Virus record (IMG/VR): IMGVR_UViG_3300025111_000094
Coordinates: 1 to 41,943 of that record
Length of the DNA stretch: 41,943 nucleotides
Origin: a virus
Strand: one strand, 5' to 3'
The first letter of the stretch is position 1, and every line of letters starts with the position of its first letter. Below are positions 31,975 to 41,943 of the stretch, one piece after another. Position numbers and translations under genes: made by a program. The notes below the pieces were generated by a model that was not told where the DNA came from, did no database searches, and saw nothing but the letters and a program-made list of their open reading frames with translations.

Positions 31975-32556
31975 TTACGGGAGATAATCGCGTAGCCCCT
32001 GTTTTTCAAAAACAGTCCTTATACGCTTTATCTCCTTATAGATCGCGCTTTCCGATAACTGCATGAATTCGCTGGCTTCGTTGACGCTTAACCCTTCCTC
32101 GCGCAAGAGGCGGCAAAGCTTCTGCTGCCTCTCCGACAGATCGGGGATGATGCTGTGCAAGGTCATCCAGAGGTCAAAGGCCGGAAGAGGGTCTGGGGCG
32201 GGTAGAAGGTCGATAAGCTCAGACAAGCCTTCCTCGTCATCTACTGGCTGGTTCAAGGAAACTGTGTTCTCGGCGATTACCCGTTTATCTGATAGGAGAC
32301 TTTCTTTAAGGTTAAGTAGGTGGTTTCGGACGACAGTTGCCATGAACGTAGAAAGGGAGGCATCCCTTTTTTCGTCATATGCGGGTTTTGCTGTCCACCA
32401 CTTAACCAGGCAGGCCTGCAGGAGATCATCGAAGTCCTCGCGCTCGAGGCAGGGCCACTGCCTTCGGATCTCGTTTATCACGTTCTTTACAACACCGATT
32501 TCCAGGTCCGTGAAGAGCCCGGTGTACTCCAGTTTTTTGTTTGCTAGTTCGGTCAT
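31975..32556 (-). CDS. Phage-encoded sigma-70 family (ECF-like) sigma factor
   Basis: The product has 193 residues from the ATG at 32556, with GGAGG seven bases upstream; an earlier ATG at 32607 lacks such a site. Region 2 spans about 40-90, with FDDLLQACLVKWW and ASLSTFMATVVRNHLLN. Region 4 spans about 145-190, with LSERQQKLCRLL and a helix-turn-helix LSVNEASEFMQLSESAIYKE. There is no region 1.1 or 3 of size, so it is ECF-like. It is the first minus-strand gene of the prophage and could direct host polymerase to the phage's own promoters, perhaps the 21-bp motifs found later in the operon. Confidence 0.78.
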   Translation of the reverse strand: MTELANKKLEYTGLFTDLEIGVVKNVINEIRRQWPCLEREDFDDLLQACLVKWWTAKPAYDEKRDASLSTFMATVVRNHLLNLKESLLSDKRVIAENTVSLNQPVDDEEGLSELIDLLPAPDPLPAFDLWMTLHSIIPDLSERQQKLCRLLREEGLSVNEASEFMQLSESAIYKEIKRIRTVFEKQGLRDYLP

Positions 32557-32616
32557 GAGACACCTCCGCTTTATTTTTCGGTGTCTCGGACCTAACCCCA
32601 ACAACATGGTACGCCT

Positions 32617-32664
32617 TAAAACGCCCCGACAAAATCACGGAGGGCTCCGTGATTATGGGGCTTT
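32617..32664. promoter_or_regulatory. Large palindrome in divergent control region (operator candidate)
   Basis: The gap 32557-32866 separates the two divergent phage transcription units. Its left half holds AATCACGGAG, GG, CTCCGTGATT (32633-32654), a perfect 10-bp inverted repeat. Outside this are GCCCC/GGGGC and then TAAA/TTTA arms, giving imperfect symmetry over nearly 50 bp. There is no T run on either strand, so it is unlikely to be a terminator. It could be an operator for a regulator that switches lysis and lysogeny. The rest of the gap holds the promoter and leader listed next. Confidence 0.5.
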
Positions 32665-32734
32665 ACGACGAGGGAACAGCTTTGCCGGGTTCGCGCTGTG
32701 AATGTGGGCTAAATGGCGTTTTACCAATGAAAAT

Positions 32735-32764
32735 TTGACATTTGGAATGTAATCGTGATAGAAT
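32735..32764 (+). promoter_or_regulatory. Sigma-70-type promoter for the right-arm genes
   Basis: A consensus -35 TTGACA at 32735-32740 and TAGAAT at 32759-32764 are separated by 18 bases. Transcription would begin near 32771 and read rightwards into the AIPR gene. The near-consensus boxes suggest the gene is expressed in the lysogen by host polymerase. Confidence 0.7.
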
Positions 32765-32770
32765 GGTACT

Positions 32771-32866
32771 GTCGATGTATCCGGGCAACCTGTAGGTGAA
32801 AACCTCAGGGCGAACATCGTACGACGTAAATCAGAAAAGAGGTGCTCGCTCGAAAGGAGAAAACGT
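32771..32866 (+). other. Structured 5' leader of the AIPR transcript
   Basis: The predicted ~96-base leader folds well. CGATGT (32773) pairs with ACATCG (32814), enclosing the hairpin CCTG, bulged T, AGGT, a GAAA tetraloop, ACCT, CAGG (32789-32809). GGGCAA and GGGCGA flank the hairpin. AAAGGAG follows before the ATG at 32867. I recognise no known riboswitch class. A six-codon frame starts at 32776 but is probably chance. It may be a regulatory leader, a protein-binding site or a small stable RNA. Confidence 0.4.
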
Positions 32867-34126
32867 ATGTCTACCCAGACAACTCAGCGGGAGTATCGCG
32901 TCCGCGTCAGTCCAGCCCACATCCGTACAATAAAGGACCCTAACAACGAATCGATAGGCATTATGCACGCCTATGTTCGGTTGGTGGATTTCCAACATAA
33001 CGGGGTCCTGCCAGACAAAATAAATCCAAGGGCACATGAAAAATTAACCGGTCGAGTTCCAGAGGCCATAACCGGCTCAGTGGAAAGCCGACCGGAGATC
33101 TTTCATTTGCTGAACCGAGGCCTTCTCTTAATAGCGCAGAAAGCCTGGTACGACAATAAGACGGAAACGCTTCACGTGCAGATAGAATCGGAGGATAAGG
33201 GCGGCCTAGCCGATGGCGCAACCACCGACAGAGTGCTCGCACAAATTAAGCGTGCCGTATCTGCGGCGGATTTTCAGACCCTTCAGGAGTCCGAGATTCC
33301 GGCGCATCTTAAAAAGGTCTATTTCCATTTGGAGATAATATCTGGTGACACCCAGGATATATTGCTTCAGATGACCGATGCCCGAAATACGAGCGTGCAA
33401 GTGCAGGCCTTTGCGCTCGAAAACCTCGGCGGCGGCTTTGAATGGCTGAAAGAAGTCCTTGAGGACTCCGTCTTTAAGGGCAAAATTCGCTATCGGGAAA
33501 ACGATACTCAGCCCATTGACGTCAGGAGAATCCTGAGTTTATTGATGATGTTCCACCCGAAATGGGAAAAGGATGAAAGAGAACCCATTATCGCCTATGC
33601 TTCTAAGGGCTTTGTCCTGGAACATTATCGTAAGCCTGAGTGGAAGGAAGGTTTCCAGGCATTGCGCCCGGTCGTGCTGGATATTTTGAAGCTCTATGAC
33701 CATATCCACGTTAACTTCCCCGAACAGTACGAGAAGGCCAGGAAGTTTTACAAGGACTCCGGTGCCAAGCTCGGAGCAAGGAAAGAGGTCACCTATAAAG
33801 CCGGTAAGAAGCATCGGCTAGAGCTTACTGGCCAAGAAACGAACTACTTTATCCCGGATGGATGGCTATACCCGCTCCTGGCGTCGTTTAGGGTATTCCT
33901 GAAATGGCCTTCTAACGGGAAAGGGGACGTCTCTTGGAAAATTGACCCCTTCGCGTTTTACGATCATTCCGGCCATGAAGCAGTTCAGGATATCGTAGAA
34001 CAGTCCGAATCCCTCGGACGTAACGCCAACGCCACCGGCAAAAGCCGGTCTGTCTGGACCATGTTGCGCCGTTGGAGCGAGCACGCTTCAATGCGGCAGC
34101 AGGCCGAAAAATTAGGACAGAAGTAA
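32867..34126 (+). CDS. AIPR-family protein (abortive-infection type)
   Basis: The product has 419 residues. The RPEIFHLLNRGLLLIAQKAW segment (75-94) and GGLADGATTDRVLAQI (112-127) match the order of the AIPR core, in which an NRG motif precedes an NGxQT or DGGHT-type motif, here changed to DGATT. The remaining ~290 residues are mainly helical and end in a basic stretch. AIPR proteins are linked to abortive infection and mobile elements, but their biochemistry is not well known. It has its own strong promoter, a structured leader and a terminator behind it. The family call is fairly good; the mechanism is unknown. Confidence 0.65.
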   Translation: MSTQTTQREYRVRVSPAHIRTIKDPNNESIGIMHAYVRLVDFQHNGVLPDKINPRAHEKLTGRVPEAITGSVESRPEIFHLLNRGLLLIAQKAWYDNKTETLHVQIESEDKGGLADGATTDRVLAQIKRAVSAADFQTLQESEIPAHLKKVYFHLEIISGDTQDILLQMTDARNTSVQVQAFALENLGGGFEWLKEVLEDSVFKGKIRYRENDTQPIDVRRILSLLMMFHPKWEKDEREPIIAYASKGFVLEHYRKPEWKEGFQALRPVVLDILKLYDHIHVNFPEQYEKARKFYKDSGAKLGARKEVTYKAGKKHRLELTGQETNYFIPDGWLYPLLASFRVFLKWPSNGKGDVSWKIDPFAFYDHSGHEAVQDIVEQSESLGRNANATGKSRSVWTMLRRWSEHASMRQQAEKLGQK

Positions 34127-34134
34127 GTCTAAAC

Positions 34135-34180
34135 GCTGGGGGAGGGGGTTTCCCTTCCCCCAGCTGTTTCTTTATTTATT
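34135..34180 (+). terminator. Rho-independent terminator after the AIPR gene
   Basis: GCTGGGGGA and TCCCCCAGC close a hairpin with a further GGG/CCC inside around TTT, followed by the T-rich tail TGTTTCTTTATTTATTT. It lies nine bases after the AIPR stop, so the next two genes are reached only by read-through or by a weak local promoter that I cannot identify. Confidence 0.82.
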
Positions 34181-34193
34181 TCCGGGGGGAAAT

Positions 34194-35300
34194 ATGACAA
34201 AACATCGATCGTTTAAATTGGATAAATTCCTCAGAGCCGTAGATCCTGGCCTCAGAAAGAAGTTTTTTGAAAACAATAAGGTTACCGTTCCGGAGACGGT
34301 GAACTTTGAAGATGACAGCCTGGACAAGTTCTGGGAAACTATTCCGGAAGACGTGAGGGTGGAAATCGAAGAGCGGCTCCAATGCGTGAATGATACTGCC
34401 GATCATGCCCGCGAATGTCTGGAGCAGGCCTGCCGGGAGTATAAGATCGAAAAGCAAGAGGATGAAACCCCTGAGACTACCGCCATGCGGGTCTATTTAC
34501 ACGGAGAGGCGGCTTTTGCCCTGGCCTACGATGCCTACCTCTATTACATCCTCTCTGAAAAAATGAGCCACCATAAGTTCCAGAAAACTGCGCCAGACTT
34601 TAGTGACGGACAATTCCCGGAGTTTCAGGCGGCAGTAGAGGCGCATTTTAAAGCGTTTGGGAAAAGCGGGCACTGCAACATCCGCCATCGGATCGATGGC
34701 GACAAGCATATCGTCCTAATCGCCCATGGGGATTTTGTAAAAACCCATCTTGTATTCGACGAAGATAAAGCGAAAACCCGAATTAGATCCTTTCGCCCAG
34801 CGAAAGAGGATATGCTGGTTTTTAATAAGACCAATAATGTCCTAAGCATGAGCTTGAGCGGGCGTAGCGACGACGACAAGAAAAAGTATCTTGAAATGGT
34901 CGGTAAGGCCTTCCTCGGGCTTACGGCGATAGATGAATCGACGGTAAGTAGCTCCCTGGTTGATATAGAGCCGATTAAAAAACGCACGTTCGATTTCAAT
35001 GGGAACGAGCAGGTGGAATCCGTGAAGCTGCTTGAGGTCAGTGCGAAGACCGGTGATGGCGTCATGCGGATAATAGTGAAGTCAAACGACCTCGCCAAGG
35101 TGACTTCGCATGGTATCGGGCCGGATGGCGGTGCGCAGTTTCTGTCCGTCAAGCTGAAGTTTACGATCAGGCGTGAGGGCTTAAAAAGCAAAAGCTTCGT
35201 GGTGGAGATAAAGCCGCCCGAGAACAGCAAGATCCCGCAGAAAAAAGAACGGCAGATTATCGAGAAGTACCTGCGGGAGCAGAAGGTGCTGCTTGAATAA
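34194..35300 (+). CDS. Unrecognised protein of the AIPR cassette
   Basis: The product has 368 residues, preceded by a G-rich weak ribosome site (GGGGGGA). It is an acidic, helical N-terminal half (KFWETIPEDVRVEIEERLQ, AAFALAYDAYLYYILSEKM) followed by a mixed alpha/beta half with GKSGHCNIRHRIDGDKHIVL and an AHGDFVKTHLVFDEDK segment. The C-terminal ~100 residues are beta-rich and basic. There is no transmembrane segment, Walker motif or metal-cluster cysteine set. It is followed with an eight-base overlap by the next gene, so the two products are made together and probably interact. I recognise no family. Confidence 0.7.
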   Translation: MTKHRSFKLDKFLRAVDPGLRKKFFENNKVTVPETVNFEDDSLDKFWETIPEDVRVEIEERLQCVNDTADHARECLEQACREYKIEKQEDETPETTAMRVYLHGEAAFALAYDAYLYYILSEKMSHHKFQKTAPDFSDGQFPEFQAAVEAHFKAFGKSGHCNIRHRIDGDKHIVLIAHGDFVKTHLVFDEDKAKTRIRSFRPAKEDMLVFNKTNNVLSMSLSGRSDDDKKKYLEMVGKAFLGLTAIDESTVSSSLVDIEPIKKRTFDFNGNEQVESVKLLEVSAKTGDGVMRIIVKSNDLAKVTSHGIGPDGGAQFLSVKLKFTIRREGLKSKSFVVEIKPPENSKIPQKKERQIIEKYLREQKVLLE

Positions 35301-36384
35301 CAAATTACTCGCTTACTTGCTCCAGCAGTGTGAACGCTCGCCCAATGCGAAGTTCTACGAGAGCGATTTACGTCGTATTTCCTCGTCAGATTTCTTGTCG
35401 CTAAAGAAACTGAAGTGCCTTTCTTTTGATCAGTACGACTTCGAGGATGAGAATTATGTCGATAAGCAAGGAGGTGAACGTTTTGTCCGCAAGGTGAATG
35501 GTCGTTGGCTTGCTACATCAACCGAGGATTCTGGGATATCGCCCATATATCTCAACGAGGCGGACCTTAACCGGTATATATTCAACATTATGCCGCTTCT
35601 GGCCGGGATTAAGACTGAAAATAGTCTTGCGAGGTCCATCGATGCTGTTACGCCTAGGGTCTGGTTTGTCGGAGTAGCGCAGGTCCTGCAAAACACTGTC
35701 GGGGTGTTTTTAGCCTTTATTTCTGATGACGAACAAGGAGAGGCCGAACTGTTGGGGCTGCGGGCCAAAATCGGCAAGGTGGACGACATCCTGGTCCTCT
35801 GTCCAACCTATGCGCCGAAGGCGCAGGAGTTATTGAATAAGTTTGCGGGCATACGTCTCACCTGCTTGACCTTTAAAGAGGCGTTCAGTAAAAATAATTA
35901 CGGGATTAATTTCAGTAAGGTCCGGCTCGTGCAGGCTTCAGAACAACAAGTGCAGAGACTGACGCCCCAGCAGACTGAGGATTACACGAAGTATGCATAC
36001 CTGTGTCAGGACAGGGTGCATATTCCTGGTACAGCATCGTTAAAGCGAAGCAACGATATCGATATTAACGGGCAGAAGATCAAAATGCCTGATGGGGCAT
36101 TTCGGGTCTTCATCGAATTGCTCGTTCAGCTGAAGAAAGGAAAAGGCGGATGGCTGACCATGGCGCGGAATGAAGGGGAATATCAGATATTTGGCCGAGT
36201 CCGGGAGCCGTTGACGGGAAGCCTGTTGGGGAAAAAGGATGGGAAAACGATTATTGAAAGCAACGGCTCAAAAGGTTATAGGATTTCGACACATCCTGAT
36301 TTTGTTACCTATAACCTTACAAATTTAAAGAAGCATGCCGATCCGCTTGTCCAGGGGTTTGCCAAAAAGCTGCCTAAAGCATAA
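35293..36384 (+). CDS. Unrecognised protein with C-terminal winged-helix-like domain
   Basis: The product has 363 residues from a TTG at 35293 that overlaps the previous stop by eight bases, with AAGGTG upstream; translational coupling is likely. The N-terminal ~90 residues may be a small helical domain. About 115-220 has alternating strands and helices (RVWFVGVAQVLQNTVGVFLA, KVDDILVLCPTYAPKAQELL). Residues ~260-345 read like an OmpR-type winged helix: IDINGQKIKMPDGAFRVFIE, then SNGSKGYRIS in the wing position. It may bind DNA and act as the regulator of this cassette or of lysogeny. There is no clear family match. Confidence 0.68.
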   Translation: MNNKLLAYLLQQCERSPNAKFYESDLRRISSSDFLSLKKLKCLSFDQYDFEDENYVDKQGGERFVRKVNGRWLATSTEDSGISPIYLNEADLNRYIFNIMPLLAGIKTENSLARSIDAVTPRVWFVGVAQVLQNTVGVFLAFISDDEQGEAELLGLRAKIGKVDDILVLCPTYAPKAQELLNKFAGIRLTCLTFKEAFSKNNYGINFSKVRLVQASEQQVQRLTPQQTEDYTKYAYLCQDRVHIPGTASLKRSNDIDINGQKIKMPDGAFRVFIELLVQLKKGKGGWLTMARNEGEYQIFGRVREPLTGSLLGKKDGKTIIESNGSKGYRISTHPDFVTYNLTNLKKHADPLVQGFAKKLPKA

Positions 36385-36424: not shown

Positions 36425-36625
36425 ATGGAAACACAAAATACACCTGCGGTAAATTCAAAAAATACTTCTCCGGAAGAACGCTTGGATGCCTTGGCGAATG
36501 TTTTAGCCGAAGGCATAGCTTATCTGGGTGAGCGAGGCCTTCTGGACTTCGCTCTGGCCCCGTCTTCGGACTTGCCCATACCGCCCAAAGAAGCTATCAA
36601 TCCCAATGTGACAGAAAGGCCTTGA
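36425..36625 (+). CDS. Small protein preceding the serine recombinase
   Basis: The product has 66 residues from the ATG at 36425; a longer frame begins inside the previous gene and is less likely. The amphipathic helix SPEERLDALANVLAEGIAYL is followed by a Pro-rich tail. No good ribosome site is seen. Short helical proteins of this kind often lie directly before large serine recombinases and may help control recombination, for example as a directionality partner. This one is only a position-based guess. Confidence 0.5.
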   Translation: METQNTPAVNSKNTSPEERLDALANVLAEGIAYLGERGLLDFALAPSSDLPIPPKEAINPNVTERP

Positions 36626-36669: not shown

Positions 36670-38367
36670 ATGCCCGAAGAAGCCGATTCTTCAAGTGACT
36701 CGAAAGCGAAGCGAATTGCGATTTACTGCCGGAAGTCTAACGACGAGAATCTTACAAATAACGTCACCTCCATCGACAGCCAGAAAATGTGCTGCCGAAG
36801 CTATATCGACATTCAAAAAGCGAAGCATTGGGAGGAATACCCCGAAGTTTTTGATGATCCGGCGGAATCCGGTAAGAGCCTAAAGCGTCCGGCAATGCAA
36901 CGCCTTCTGAAGTGCGTTCAGGAAAAGAAAATTGACGGCGTGATAGTGTATAAGTTGGACCGACTAACTCGGAATAGCCGGGACTTCCATTATCTGCTGG
37001 AGCTCTTTGAAAGGCAAAATGTCGCCTTCGTCTCCGCGACGGAATCCATTGATACAAAGAGCCCGCAGGGTAGGCTCATGACCGCTATTATGGTTCAGTT
37101 TGCCCAATACGACCGTGAGCTCGACCAGGAAAGATCACGCGATTTTCACCTTTCAAGGGCTCGTAAAGGCCTCTGGACGGGCGGACTGGCCCCCTTGGGC
37201 TATGACCTCAAGGATAAAATGCTGGTCATCAATCCGGAAGAAGCCGAACTAGTGAATCGGGTTTTTAACTTATATGTTGAATACCGGTCTACGATAAGGG
37301 TTGCCCAGGAACTGAATCAGCTCGGATTCCGGCGTAAGGTGTATAAGAAAATTGAGGGGAACAAAAAGGCATATGGGGGCAAAGCCTTCGATATGGACAG
37401 TGTTCTCCGAATCCTACAGCGTAAGGTATATATCGGAACTGTTCGGAATACGCGCACCGAACAGGAATTTCAGGGGAAGCATGAGCCCATCGTGGACATG
37501 GCTCTATTTGAGCAGGTCCAAAAGCTGATCGTCGAACATAACCATAGGGGCGGCGAAGTACACTATAACGCCAATAAACACGGATTTCTATTCAAAGGTC
37601 TGGTCGGCTGTGGGGAGTGTGGGAGCGCCATTGTGCCCACTTACCGGAAGAAGAAGGGCAAGACATACCTATATTATAAGTGCCTCGCTCAATCCAAGGG
37701 CCTGCCCAATAAATGCGCGATTACGCCACTCGGGGCGCGAAAGTTCGAATCCTTCGTGGTTGAAAATATCGCGGCCATCGGGTGGGATAGACCGTTTCTG
37801 GAGAAGATAACGCTCTTGGCACAAAAAAAGGCCAAGGAGAATGTAGGCCCTCTGGAAAAAGAGCATCAGATCCTTGAAGGACGGCTCAAGAACATTAAAC
37901 GGGAATTGCGCCGTTTGGTGGACTTGGTCAAGGTCGGGAGCGCATCCGGGGAAGTGGCAGAGGAGATTCAGCGTCTTGAAGAGACCAAAAAAGGCCTAAT
38001 AGGGCGAATGTCGGCTATCGAAGTCCTGACCGCCCATAACAAGAAGGTCGTATATGACGTTGATGCGATTCAGGGGACGCTTCAGCGCTTCGCCATGTTC
38101 ATCAACAGGCTGCCGGTGGAGCTTCAGGTCAAAATGATTCGGGTTCTGGTGGAGAAAATTATCGTGTTTAAGGACAAGATAGTCATCAAGGTCCCTGAGA
38201 CTCCCGTCGGAGAAATCCAAAAACTGCTGGATACGAAGTTGTTATTTGGGGGGTGTTTATTAAGAGAACGATGGGGGGCAAATAACAACCACAAGCAAAA
38301 CGACCACCGAATAGGGGTGGTCGAATTGGATAAAGAGTGGCGCCCCCAAAGGGATTCGAACCCTTGA
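36670..38367 (+). CDS. Large serine recombinase (phage integrase), C-terminus altered by integration
   Basis: The ORF has 565 residues. Catalytic Ser23 lies in YCRKSND; YKLDRLTRNSRD and GRLMTAIMVQFAQYDRELDQE complete the resolvase domain (~1-165). A recombinase domain follows to ~300, then a zinc ribbon (CGECGSAIVP ... YYKC, ~315-345) and a coiled coil near 395-445. AAGGAG six bases before the ATG fixes the start. From codon 531, at the inferred core, the frame is host DNA: the last residues (WRPQRDSNP) are read through an antisense tRNA-Glu. In phage form it should end LLRGI. It integrates and, with a partner, excises the prophage. Confidence 0.9.
   Translation: MPEEADSSSDSKAKRIAIYCRKSNDENLTNNVTSIDSQKMCCRSYIDIQKAKHWEEYPEVFDDPAESGKSLKRPAMQRLLKCVQEKKIDGVIVYKLDRLTRNSRDFHYLLELFERQNVAFVSATESIDTKSPQGRLMTAIMVQFAQYDRELDQERSRDFHLSRARKGLWTGGLAPLGYDLKDKMLVINPEEAELVNRVFNLYVEYRSTIRVAQELNQLGFRRKVYKKIEGNKKAYGGKAFDMDSVLRILQRKVYIGTVRNTRTEQEFQGKHEPIVDMALFEQVQKLIVEHNHRGGEVHYNANKHGFLFKGLVGCGECGSAIVPTYRKKKGKTYLYYKCLAQSKGLPNKCAITPLGARKFESFVVENIAAIGWDRPFLEKITLLAQKKAKENVGPLEKEHQILEGRLKNIKRELRRLVDLVKVGSASGEVAEEIQRLEETKKGLIGRMSAIEVLTAHNKKVVYDVDAIQGTLQRFAMFINRLPVELQVKMIRVLVEKIIVFKDKIVIKVPETPVGEIQKLLDTKLLFGGCLLRERWGANNNHKQNDHRIGVVELDKEWRPQRDSNP
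38259..38266. repeat. Inferred attR core (ATTAAGAG), right prophage boundary
   Basis: This is the second copy of the 8-bp sequence at 588-595, in the same codon phase, inside the 3' end of the recombinase frame. Sequence to the right (tRNA terminator, tRNA body) is chromosomal in nature, which supports a boundary close to here. The G/T-rich bases left of both copies are also partly alike. Confidence 0.45.
38265..38279 (-). pseudogene. tRNA-Glu 5'-end-like fragment
   Basis: The minus strand reads GCCCCCCATCGTTCT. Many bacterial tRNA-Glu genes begin GCCCCCATCGTCT; this sequence matches with one extra C and one extra T. The first six bases could pair with the acceptor strand TGGGGGC of the tRNA body at 38338-38396. 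It lies downstream of that body in the same orientation, which is permuted order, and stops at the inferred attR core. Similarity is to remembered tRNA sequences and could be chance. Confidence 0.35.
38297..38323 (-). terminator. Rho-independent terminator of the tRNA-Glu locus
   Basis: On the minus strand CGACCACC, a seven-base loop CCTATTC, GGTGGTCG, then TTTT. It lies 14 bases after the encoded CCA of the tRNA body and is read through, in the other direction, by the altered recombinase C-terminus. Confidence 0.75.
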
Positions 38368-38630: not shown

Positions 38631-38671
38631 ATATTTCAGCAAATGATGAAAATGGCTATACAATGAAACAG
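38613..38671. promoter_or_regulatory. Inverted repeats over promoter and start codon, probable antitoxin operator
   Basis: CTGTTTCACTGCTATA (38613-38628) overlaps the -10 box and is mirrored by TATACAATGAAACAG (38657-38671), which covers the start codon. A further TGAAATATAGC ... ATATTTCA symmetry surrounds the promoter. AbiEi antitoxins of known systems repress their own operon by binding inverted repeats in the promoter, so this is the likely operator. Confidence 0.55.
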
Positions 38672-39706
38672 AAAGACATGGAGTCCTTAGCAACGCGAGC
38701 TATACTGACCTGTTTGGCAGAGGTCCCTTTTCTGCGCCCAACCAGGCAGTCTAACCTGAACAAGTCGCCCTATGAGCCAGACCTGCTTTTTAAAGTTTCA
38801 GGGAAAGACAAGAAACAATATACCTTGATCGTGATGGTTAAAAGCACCGGACAGCCTCGTTTGGTCCGCGATGCTATAGCGGTCCTTGCAATGAGTAAGA
38901 ATAAGTGTCCCAATTCGTATCCAGTTGTCGTGGCTCCTTATATATCGGAACAGTCTGCTGATATGTGCAGGCAGGCTGATGTCGGCTATATTGATCTGAG
39001 GGGGAACTGCTACCTGGCATTTGATTCGGTTTTTATAGAACGGACGGGCATACCAAATGAAGCGGAAAAACGGGAGTTAAAGTATATCTACTCTCCCCGG
39101 GCAGAGAGGGTGCTTCGGGTTCTTCTCAATGATGTTTCCAAATCATGGAAGACGGTCGATCTTGCCCAGGCTGCCGGTGTCAGCTTGGGACATGTGTCGA
39201 ATATAAGGAAGCGGCTTGAGCAGGGAGAGTTCCTGAATGCCGAAAGCACTGGTATCCGGGTATCACGCCCCAAGGATCTGCTTGAGGCGTGGTCAAAGAA
39301 TTACAAGATGCGCAGTGATACGATATACCGCTTCTGGTCGCCTCAGACATTGCCTGAACTAGAGGAGACGTTGCTATCGTATACCGGCAAGAAGAAGCTT
39401 CAGTGCGCGTTGACAGCTTTCTCGGCTGGTGCGCTGTATGCCCCGATGGTAATAATGCCGCGGTTATTTGCATATTGTACGGAAGATATGGATCAACTGG
39501 CGGCCGCTTTGCGGCTGAAGAAGGTTGATTCCGGTGAGAGTATCCAATTAATCAGGCCACATGACGACGGCGTATTTATCGGCGCCAGGAAGTTGCAGGG
39601 TAAAATGCTGGTTTCACCAGTGCAAGCCTATCTTGATCTCGTAGCGCTTGGAGGGAGAGGGGAAGAGGCGGCAAAGTCTATAATGGGACAGGTTCTCAAA
39701 TGGTAA
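38663..39706 (+). CDS. AbiEi-type antitoxin / transcriptional regulator
   Basis: The product has 347 residues. The N-terminal ~135 residues resemble the nuclease-like fold of the larger AbiEi relatives: KQYTLIVMVKSTGQPRLVRD, then ADVGYIDLRGNCYLAF. A winged helix follows near 165-195 (TVDLAQAAGVSLGHVSNIRK), and ~150 C-terminal residues include the FSAGALYAPMVIMPRLFAYC segment common in these antitoxins. In type IV systems AbiEi represses the operon and counters the AbiEii toxin without binding it. There is no good ribosome site. The gene overlaps the toxin gene by seven bases. Confidence 0.75.
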   Translation: MKQKDMESLATRAILTCLAEVPFLRPTRQSNLNKSPYEPDLLFKVSGKDKKQYTLIVMVKSTGQPRLVRDAIAVLAMSKNKCPNSYPVVVAPYISEQSADMCRQADVGYIDLRGNCYLAFDSVFIERTGIPNEAEKRELKYIYSPRAERVLRVLLNDVSKSWKTVDLAQAAGVSLGHVSNIRKRLEQGEFLNAESTGIRVSRPKDLLEAWSKNYKMRSDTIYRFWSPQTLPELEETLLSYTGKKKLQCALTAFSAGALYAPMVIMPRLFAYCTEDMDQLAAALRLKKVDSGESIQLIRPHDDGVFIGARKLQGKMLVSPVQAYLDLVALGGRGEEAAKSIMGQVLKW

Positions 39707-40524
39707 AAAATAGCGATTATAATCTTGATATGGTGGCGGCGGCGCATTCCGTCTTGATTGAAATAGTGCATCTGCTTGGGGAATACCGGGATTCCATGAT
39801 ATTAGTCGGTGGGTGGGTCCCGCAACTGCTGTGCAGCGGAGCAAAGGTTAAGCATATCGGCAGCATCGATATCGATCTATTACTGGACCACAGGAATTTG
39901 GGCGGCCCAGCTTATAAAACGATTAAGAAGCTTCTTCTCGCCCGCGGGTATGTCGAAGGCGAGCAACCCTTTATATTTTACCGGGATGTGCCGCAGCCGT
40001 CCGGCACTATCCGTGTGGAGGTGGACTTCCTGGGCGCTCAATACGAGGGCACTGGGAAGAAGCACCGGACACAGCAAGCGCAGGATATGAAGATCCGGAA
40101 AGCGCGCGGCGCCGATTTGGCGTTTAAGAAGCCGGTGGAAGTTACAATCGCAGGTGTTCTGCCGGGAGGAGCCGAAGATAAGGTCAGTGTGAGAGTGGCA
40201 TCCATAGTCCCCTTTTTGGTTATGAAGGCGCAGGCTCTCAATAGCAGGCTGAAAGAAAAGGATTCATGGGACATCTATTATTGCCTTTTAAATTACCCGG
40301 GCGGAGTATATGCGATAGCTGAAGAGTTTAAAAAGCTGGCTGCCAATAAACTGGTTAAAGAAGCCTTGGGAATATTGCAGGATAAATTCGGCTCCTTAAA
40401 GGGGCTGGGCCCAACGCATGTAGCCGCCTTTGAGAATGTAACAAGTACTGAAGAGCGGGAGCGTATTCAGCGAGATGCTTATGAGCGGGTCTCTCTATTG
40501 TTGAAGTCGGTCGCAGAAGCGTAA
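39700..40524 (+). CDS. AbiEii-like nucleotidyltransferase toxin
   Basis: The product has 274 residues. GG at 37-38 followed by HIGSIDIDLLL (53-61) is the GS...DxD metal site of nucleotidyltransferases. TIRVEVDFLG near 103-112 gives the third carboxylate, and KEKDSWDIYYCL near residue 186 matches the conserved K/D motif of AbiEii toxins. These toxins add nucleotides to RNA targets such as tRNA and stop growth on phage infection. Translation is coupled to the antitoxin gene by a seven-base overlap (ATGGTAA). All key residues seem present, so it should be active. Confidence 0.75.
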   Translation: MVKNSDYNLDMVAAAHSVLIEIVHLLGEYRDSMILVGGWVPQLLCSGAKVKHIGSIDIDLLLDHRNLGGPAYKTIKKLLLARGYVEGEQPFIFYRDVPQPSGTIRVEVDFLGAQYEGTGKKHRTQQAQDMKIRKARGADLAFKKPVEVTIAGVLPGGAEDKVSVRVASIVPFLVMKAQALNSRLKEKDSWDIYYCLLNYPGGVYAIAEEFKKLAANKLVKEALGILQDKFGSLKGLGPTHVAAFENVTSTEERERIQRDAYERVSLLLKSVAEA

Positions 40525-40614
40525 GCGACTCCCGATGCTTTGCATTTATTCACAAATTGTTTCAATGTGAGGAAATCGCTCTCCTGAATTACTAACATGA
40601 TGAAAAATTAAGAT

Positions 40615-41943
40615 ATGCAAGACGATATGACACAAGATAAAAAAACACCCGCTACCGCGAGCGGATCCGTAGAAGTTCCTAGAGCTGGAACCGAGCGAGA
40701 TCCAGCCAAGATAGAAGCCAAGTTGCTGATGCTCGACCGACTTATCGATTGGCCCACCTCTTTGACCAGCAGGGAAGACCTCAAGAAAGTGCTGTCCGAT
40801 GGCAGACAGATGCGCATAAAGTTCGGGGTGGACATAACGGCAAGGACGCTGCATATCGGCCATGCCGTCAACCTGAGAGCCATCAGGCACTTGCAGGACC
40901 TCGGTCATAAGGTCGTGTTCATGCTCGGAGGATTTACCACTCTCGTCGGCGATCCGACAGGGAAGGTCGTGGCGAGAGTTGCACAGGACCGGGACGAAGT
41001 GGAGGAGAACAAGCGCGCCTTTATCGACCAGATAAAATCGATAATCAGGTTCGATATCCCCGACCGGATCGAGATCCGAGACAATACTGAGTGGTGGGGG
41101 ACGCCGGAAAAACATGGGCGCATAACCGTAGGCCATCTTTTCGAGCTGCTCAGGACGATTACGGTCACAAACCTCCTTTCGCGCGATATGTTCCGCGAGC
41201 GGATGAAGAAGTCGGACCCCATTTACGCCTCGGAATTCCTGTACCCAGTACTACAGGGCTACGACTCAGTTGAAATGCAGTCAGACCTGACTATCGTCGG
41301 GACGGACCAGATGTTCAACGAGAAGATGGCCTGGGAGTTTCAGGAAGCGAACGGCCAGAAAAGACAGGCGGTATTCTGCACCAAGATAACCCCCGGGCTG
41401 GACGGGAGGGACAAACAGTCCAAATCCCTGGGGAATTATGTGGGTCTGGCCTTCAGCCCGCAGGAAAAGTTCAACAGCACGATGCTTCTCCTCGACGGAC
41501 TCGTATCGCAGTGGTTCGATGTTTATACCGAGGCAGACCCGCGACAGATAAGCGAATGGAAAACCGAATTCGACGCCGACCCGGTGGCCATGAAGAAGCG
41601 TCTGGCGTTCTGCATAGTAGAACTCTTCCACGGCCGGGAGGAAGCGGAAAAAGCGGAGAGCGAGTTCGACTCCCGCAAGTTCAAGAAAAAAGTGCCATCC
41701 GTCATCGGAGCGAAAAGCGTGAACCCAGAGGACACGATCCGTAATGCGCTGATGACCGCACTTGGCAGAAAAGCCGGCGACATCCGGGATGCCATCTCCA
41801 ACAACGCGCTCAACCTCATAACGAAGGTGAACGAGGACGGCTCTTACGAGGAAGAAAAGCTCGATATGATGAAAATTTCCGCGATAAAGGCCAAGGGCGC
41901 GTTGATCCGGTGGGGGAAGAATGGCTTTTACCGTTTCGAGTAG
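40615..41943 (+). CDS. tyrS: Tyrosyl-tRNA synthetase
   Basis: The product has 442 residues. Class I signatures: LHIGH at 79-83, GGFTTLVGDPTGK near 105-117, IVGTDQMFNEKM (227-238) and DKQSKSLGN (266-274), where Gln replaces the Met of KMSKS. The enzyme charges tRNA-Tyr with tyrosine. A ~30-residue extension rich in Thr, Lys and Ala precedes the catalytic domain; an ATG four codons in is an alternative start. The C-terminal ~70 residues, ending KAKGALIRWGKNGFYRFE, look like a degenerate S4 RNA-binding domain. It is a household gene, or a second copy carried by an island. The stop codon is the last three bases of the window. Confidence 0.88.
   Translation: MQDDMTQDKKTPATASGSVEVPRAGTERDPAKIEAKLLMLDRLIDWPTSLTSREDLKKVLSDGRQMRIKFGVDITARTLHIGHAVNLRAIRHLQDLGHKVVFMLGGFTTLVGDPTGKVVARVAQDRDEVEENKRAFIDQIKSIIRFDIPDRIEIRDNTEWWGTPEKHGRITVGHLFELLRTITVTNLLSRDMFRERMKKSDPIYASEFLYPVLQGYDSVEMQSDLTIVGTDQMFNEKMAWEFQEANGQKRQAVFCTKITPGLDGRDKQSKSLGNYVGLAFSPQEKFNSTMLLLDGLVSQWFDVYTEADPRQISEWKTEFDADPVAMKKRLAFCIVELFHGREEAEKAESEFDSRKFKKKVPSVIGAKSVNPEDTIRNALMTALGRKAGDIRDAISNNALNLITKVNEDGSYEEEKLDMMKISAIKAKGALIRWGKNGFYRFE

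Follow-up and report, generated by a model that had tools for sequence, protein, structure and literature searches.

Two separate units in the lysogeny-control interval of an Elusimicrobiota prophage: an AIPR cargo gene and a gene pair that may work like rexA-rexB

Do three adjacent genes on one strand of a prophage, lying where temperate phages may carry cargo, form one system or several? The question is raised by IMG/VR virus record IMGVR_UViG_3300025111_000094, the whole stretch of which (41,943 nucleotides, hereafter the window) represents a prophage of an Elusimicrobiota host with host DNA on its right flank. Between the sigma factor of the early genes and a serine integrase it carries a gene for an AIPR-family protein and two genes, overlapping by eight bases, for proteins designated here P2 and P3 (Table 1). 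A preliminary description made from the sequence had placed the three correctly between the early control region and the integrase and had grouped them as a possible single phage-borne defence or exclusion system. The explanation we favour, with a probability of about 0.55, is that they make up two units: a stand-alone AIPR cargo gene and a lysogeny-operon pair, P2-P3, working like rexA-rexB of phage lambda.

P2 and P3, which the preliminary description had left unassigned, gave no match in Pfam and no sequence match clearly above chance in PHROGs, NCBIfam, PADLOC or PDB either; the best PADLOC hit (E 0.0012, 16 bits) covers only part of P2 and does not amount to a match to the model. Used singly, neither protein retrieved anything from viral contigs, genome contigs, phages or plasmids; relatives came to light only when the host phylum was searched and alignments were used after that. 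Among 295 Elusimicrobiota genomes, P2 is present in four loci and P3 of the window type in two, both of them also P2 loci; querying viral contigs with the aligned first relatives recovered two close and seventeen more distant pairs. Of 24 phage or prophage loci, 23 have a P3-type gene immediately after P2, the two genes overlapping at their ends; these loci are not all independent, and some lie on fragmentary contigs. Beyond the pair, most loci carry a sigma-like gene, Sak4, a helicase and a primase, with the integrase on the opposite side (the integrase profile used for this synteny was built from three integrases). AIPR is found in none of the 24 other P2 loci and accompanies P2-P3 in the window alone, and for this reason the three-gene system does not withstand the co-occurrence test that the preliminary description itself had proposed.

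The nearest relative, locus L012 of genome G046 (P2 74%, P3 66%), shares sigma factor, gene pair and integrase type with the window and has no AIPR gene. DNA homology between the window and L012 ends at about 32677 and restarts at about 34185, so that the extra piece consists exactly of promoter, AIPR gene and terminator; judged against this closest relative, it has the appearance of an insert placed before P2. The AIPR assignment itself is sound (53.1 bits against a cut-off of 25, over positions 4-300 of the 308 in PF10592), and both the promoter in front of the gene and the strong hairpin that separates it from the two genes behind were recovered as had been described. The structured leader was not: the folding of 32771-32866 is no better than that of shuffled sequences (z -1.4; 20 of 200 shuffles as good).

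AIPR relatives within Elusimicrobiota are rare and located elsewhere. The nearest ones are on plasmids of Bacillota, where most of them stand alone next to a small helix-turn-helix gene that diverges from them; behind one lies a Z1-domain gene. The window protein resembles this stand-alone plasmid type, aligning with it across most of its length at 25-33% identity and retaining the ARNTSVQV block, but the divergent helix-turn-helix gene is missing in the window and DGATT stands in place of the DGGHT motif of the plasmid relatives, and an activity tied to that motif may have been lost. PADLOC models matched neither AIPR nor P3 of the window. The AIPR gene taken alone is a further member of a known family, presumably a horizontally acquired stand-alone cargo gene with an abortive-infection function.

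The libraries searched contain no description of either the P2 or the P3 family. The two branches of P2 are homologous over their whole length (hhalign probability 98%, E 4e-15), those of P3 (P3A and P3B) over residues 17-209 (91%, E 1e-6), and a still more distant pair is present at L073 (P2 97%, E 4e-11). The nearest library entry is PHROG 37634, of unknown function, which matches the P2 of L015 (E 4e-5) but not that of the window. At the only P2 locus without a recognised P3 (L048:7311-9068), a P2-like frame is joined to other sequence, by fusion, decay or assembly artefact. A SAP protein of L005 was rejected as a P2 homologue for want of any similarity; its neighbour is a P3-family protein.

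The position of the pair, between integrase and early genes, is that of lysogeny control, and the two proteins do not resemble structural or replication proteins, the outcome that the preliminary description had named as speaking against its proposal. A repressor lies directly upstream of P2 on the same strand in 9 of 25 loci: a LexA/S24 repressor in L014, L035, L038 and L073, and an XRE regulator plus a peptidase of the M78 (IrrE/ImmA) type in L036, L037, L041, L042 and L044. Sister prophages without P2-P3 hold the same kinds of module in this interval (XRE-M78 in L152 and L154; LexA in L072, L085, L155, L156 and L159). A repressor followed by P2-P3 is the layout of lambda, with its gene order cI-rexA-rexB.

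The predicted structure of P2 may point in the same direction. In the model, built from six sequences (pLDDT 69, pTM 0.59), the nine best PDB matches are all CENP-N chains from kinetochores, seven of them human and two from yeast (chain N, that is, Chl4), with E values from 4e-5 to 8e-3 and probabilities of 0.99-1.00; RnlA is among the weaker matches. The top matches in the viral library are four uncharacterised phage proteins, after which comes RdgC of two phages, Hafnia phage Enc34 and Serratia phage JS26 (E 1.4e-3). RdgC and the kinetochore proteins IML3/CHL4 are the structural relatives reported for the RexA crystal structure (PMC11077077), and the model suggests that P2 shares this RexA/RdgC/Chl4-type fold. 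The likeness is one of fold at best, because the TM-scores are low and the sequence comparisons were empty. The model of P3 is confident over residues 1-200 only, where an N-terminal helical or winged part is followed by an alpha/beta domain. The OmpR-like winged helix which had been seen at its C-terminus fits in the order of helices and strands; pLDDT there is 30-55, so the model supports it weakly. For P3 no reliable fold match was obtained; the best one (Can2 nuclease, E 0.06), together with a weak type I restriction-enzyme match of the L043 P3, hints faintly at a nuclease-like part. Profile searches of PDB with 20 P2 and 21 P3 sequences returned chance matches only.

The AIPR gene, acquired horizontally, would be expressed as cargo from its own promoter and closed by its own terminator. 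For the pair, the pairing itself, the position, the independence from AIPR and the repressor linkage in relatives are observed, and the model suggests the fold; DNA binding, expression in the lysogen and function are inferred. P2 would bind DNA, with the soluble P3 as its partner, and the lysogen would make the two proteins, in the relatives from the repressor operon. P2 would probably load on phage DNA with P3 acting as the second component, and the pair would either tune the lysis-lysogeny switch or block other phages, as rexA-rexB might. The earlier suggestion of phage-borne cargo or exclusion is plausible for each of the two units, though not for a single system.

Several observations weigh against a Rex-like pair. 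No LexA- or XRE-type repressor was found beside P2 in the window, nor in L012 or L005; the window AIPR occupies the spot that the repressor has in other loci, nor could a promoter belonging to P2-P3 itself be seen in the window. The fold comparison combines middling model confidence with TM-scores of 0.23-0.43, and RexA is absent among the 50 P2 fold matches listed. A 21-sequence P2 profile showed no sequence similarity to RexA (hhalign probability 0.2%), RdgC or RnlA, and the latter two were likewise rejected as sequence relatives. P3, with 363 residues against 144 in RexB, is not a small four-helix membrane protein, and it has no membrane-type segment (top 19-residue hydropathy 1.74, relatives 0.98-1.32, versus 2.39 for RexB).

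The missing repressor also speaks for a different, doubtful reading, in which P2-P3 itself is the lysogeny repressor or switch, the winged helix of P3 binding a 22-bp palindrome and P2 helping or antagonising it. In the window, L012 and L005 no LexA or XRE repressor was found, although sister prophages have one in that place, and the palindrome is conserved in the divergent control region: it is identical in L012 (11087-11108), is the longest in the window, and is one of only two perfect repeats there with arms of at least 9 and a gap of at most 10. It may be an operator. In 9 of 25 loci, though, P2-P3 follows a normal repressor and is therefore an addition there rather than a substitute, and the palindrome was not found beside most other P2-P3 pairs. 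That the pair is a new kind of switch replacing the usual repressor in phages like this one, with P3 reading the palindrome and a Chl4/RexA-fold P2 on phage DNA setting or releasing it, seems to us unlikely. Ordinary cargo defence without a link to the switch, in a variable interval that such phages use for exclusion genes, is quite unlikely. The interval does vary between sister prophages, neighbours of the pair include a type III restriction-modification-like set (L016), the PLD protein with ZacB- and DrmC-like matches described below (L014) and an HNH-like protein (L013), and there is the restriction-enzyme match of the L043 P3; yet the place and partner of P2-P3 are fixed across very divergent phages where other cargo changes, the repressor linkage is direct, and curated defence families give only weak partial matches.

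A toxin-antitoxin pair of the RnlA-RnlB type with P2 as toxin, to which the weaker fold matches and the eight-base overlap likewise seen in E. coli rnlA/rnlB would lend themselves, is very improbable, as P2 has no sequence similarity to RnlA, its nearly invariant residues contain no HEPN-like R-x4-6-H pair, and RnlB has a third of the size of P3. The single three-gene defence system is hardly tenable: adjacency on the same strand in the window speaks for it, and against it stand the co-occurrence at one locus only, the terminator between AIPR and P2, the absence of AIPR at the same place in L012 and the solitary AIPR relatives on plasmids.

Among named systems, RexA-RexB of lambda comes closest to P2-P3, which in 9 of 25 loci likewise consists of two adjacent genes beside the prophage repressor, the second directly behind the first, the first encoding a protein of RexA/RdgC/Chl4-type fold (for P2, as predicted). 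The pairs differ in having no sequence similarity, in the absence of a repressor alongside the window pair, and in their second proteins, RexB being a four-helix membrane protein of 144 residues and P3 a soluble one of 363 with a possible nuclease-like part and a probable winged-helix part. P2-P3 is not filed as RexAB, because sequence similarity to RexA and a RexB-like membrane nature, two features that define the type, were both looked for and neither was found; the claim is that it works like Rex, not that it is Rex. Other Rex-like pairs nearest to it are those of Sbash and CarolAnn and RexABpp of Pseudomonas putida, and Rex-like pairs within repressor operons are a kind already known (PMC11077077, PMC12894663, PMC6426596). 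What is new, as far as the searched libraries go, are the P2 and P3 families. RdgC, the recombination-associated protein, matches P2 in fold only, without a sequence match, and E. coli rdgC lies outside any repressor operon; CENP-N/Chl4, which gives the best PDB fold matches, is eukaryotic, without a sequence match and with low TM-scores.

Table 1. Features of the window around the AIPR and P2-P3 genes
Feature	Positions	Strand	Evidence
Phage sigma-70-like factor; start of the early operon, divergent neighbour	31975..32607	-	PF04542 E 8e-8; phrog_1740 E 1e-13; kept beside P2-P3
22-bp perfect inverted repeat AATCACGGAG-GG-CTCCGTGATT, candidate operator	32633..32654	.	none in 100 shuffles
AIPR cassette, missing from closest sister prophage	32678..34184	+	L012 homology break
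Sigma-70-like promoter of AIPR gene, TTGACA-18-TAGAAT	32735..32764	+	11/12 matches
AIPR-family gene, 419 aa	32867..34126	+	PF10592 E 5e-14
Intrinsic-terminator-like hairpin behind AIPR, before P2	34135..34164	+	13 pairs, 10 G-C, T-rich tail
P2, 368 aa; predicted RexA/RdgC/CENP-N-like fold	34194..35300	+	family in 24-25 phage loci; fold matches
P3, 363 aa, soluble; follows P2	35293..36384	+	behind P2 in 23/24 loci; structure model
Large serine integrase	36670..38367	+	PF00239, PF07508; phrog_95 E 4e-114

The rest of the provirus carries phage structural genes on the minus strand and a recombination and replication set comprising a helicase, an ssb-like protein, Sak4, an exonuclease and the sigma factor, besides the serine integrase. 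A small gene at 36425-36625, beside the integrase, has a distantly related counterpart at the equivalent position of L014 (1880-2302; 28% over 57 residues, E 1.5e-5) and may encode a recombination directionality factor. At its 3' end (38245-38367) the integrase gene reads ...WRPQRDSNP and lies within host-homologous DNA, and in L012 (16936-17011) a tRNA-Glu gene and the integrase end overlap. Attachment would appear to take place at a tRNA, at a site inside the 3' end of the integrase. From 38245 to its end the window has 92% DNA homology to the genome of Elusimicrobia bacterium UBA9634. The right flank (38663-41943) is host DNA with AbiEi-like, AbiEii-like and tyrosyl-tRNA synthetase genes, the last 95% identical to its UBA9634 counterpart. 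The AbiEi/AbiEii-like pair beside the integrase (38663-40524) belongs to this flank and not to the prophage, because it adjoins the tyrosyl-tRNA synthetase gene in UBA9634 (L002) too; the comparison with L002 covers the host flank only and not the whole empty site.

Other contents of the interval near P2-P3 were also recorded. In two sister prophages (L153:11907-14896 and L157:11777-14752) it contains a gene for an ECF-like sigma factor followed by two unknown genes, as an alternative to the repressor modules. Upstream of P2-P3 in L015 (4797-5534), reading by eye shows what appears to be a fusion of an XRE-type helix-turn-helix with a class III nucleotide-cyclase-like domain. Directly behind the pair, L012 (13477-14925) encodes a 482-aa protein that carries an HExxH motif and matches no family. 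Behind the pair in L014 (3979-8279) are encoded a 534-aa protein that matches nothing and a PLD-type protein of 898 aa with matches to ZacB and DrmC, which, standing in line after a LexA-type repressor, are possibly a further exclusion system.

Grouping the three genes of the window was tempting but wrong, and is corrected here. It is an open question if Rex acts in excluding phages or in switching between lysis and lysogeny, and if the answer applies beyond lambda (PMC11077077). If the explanation favoured here is true, P2-P3 is another family, unrelated to Rex in sequence, that shares with it the type of predicted fold and the place next to the repressor but has a soluble rather than a membrane partner, and its occurrence in some two dozen uncultivated phages would offer a natural comparison with Rex, in which the features common to both would likely mark the core function.

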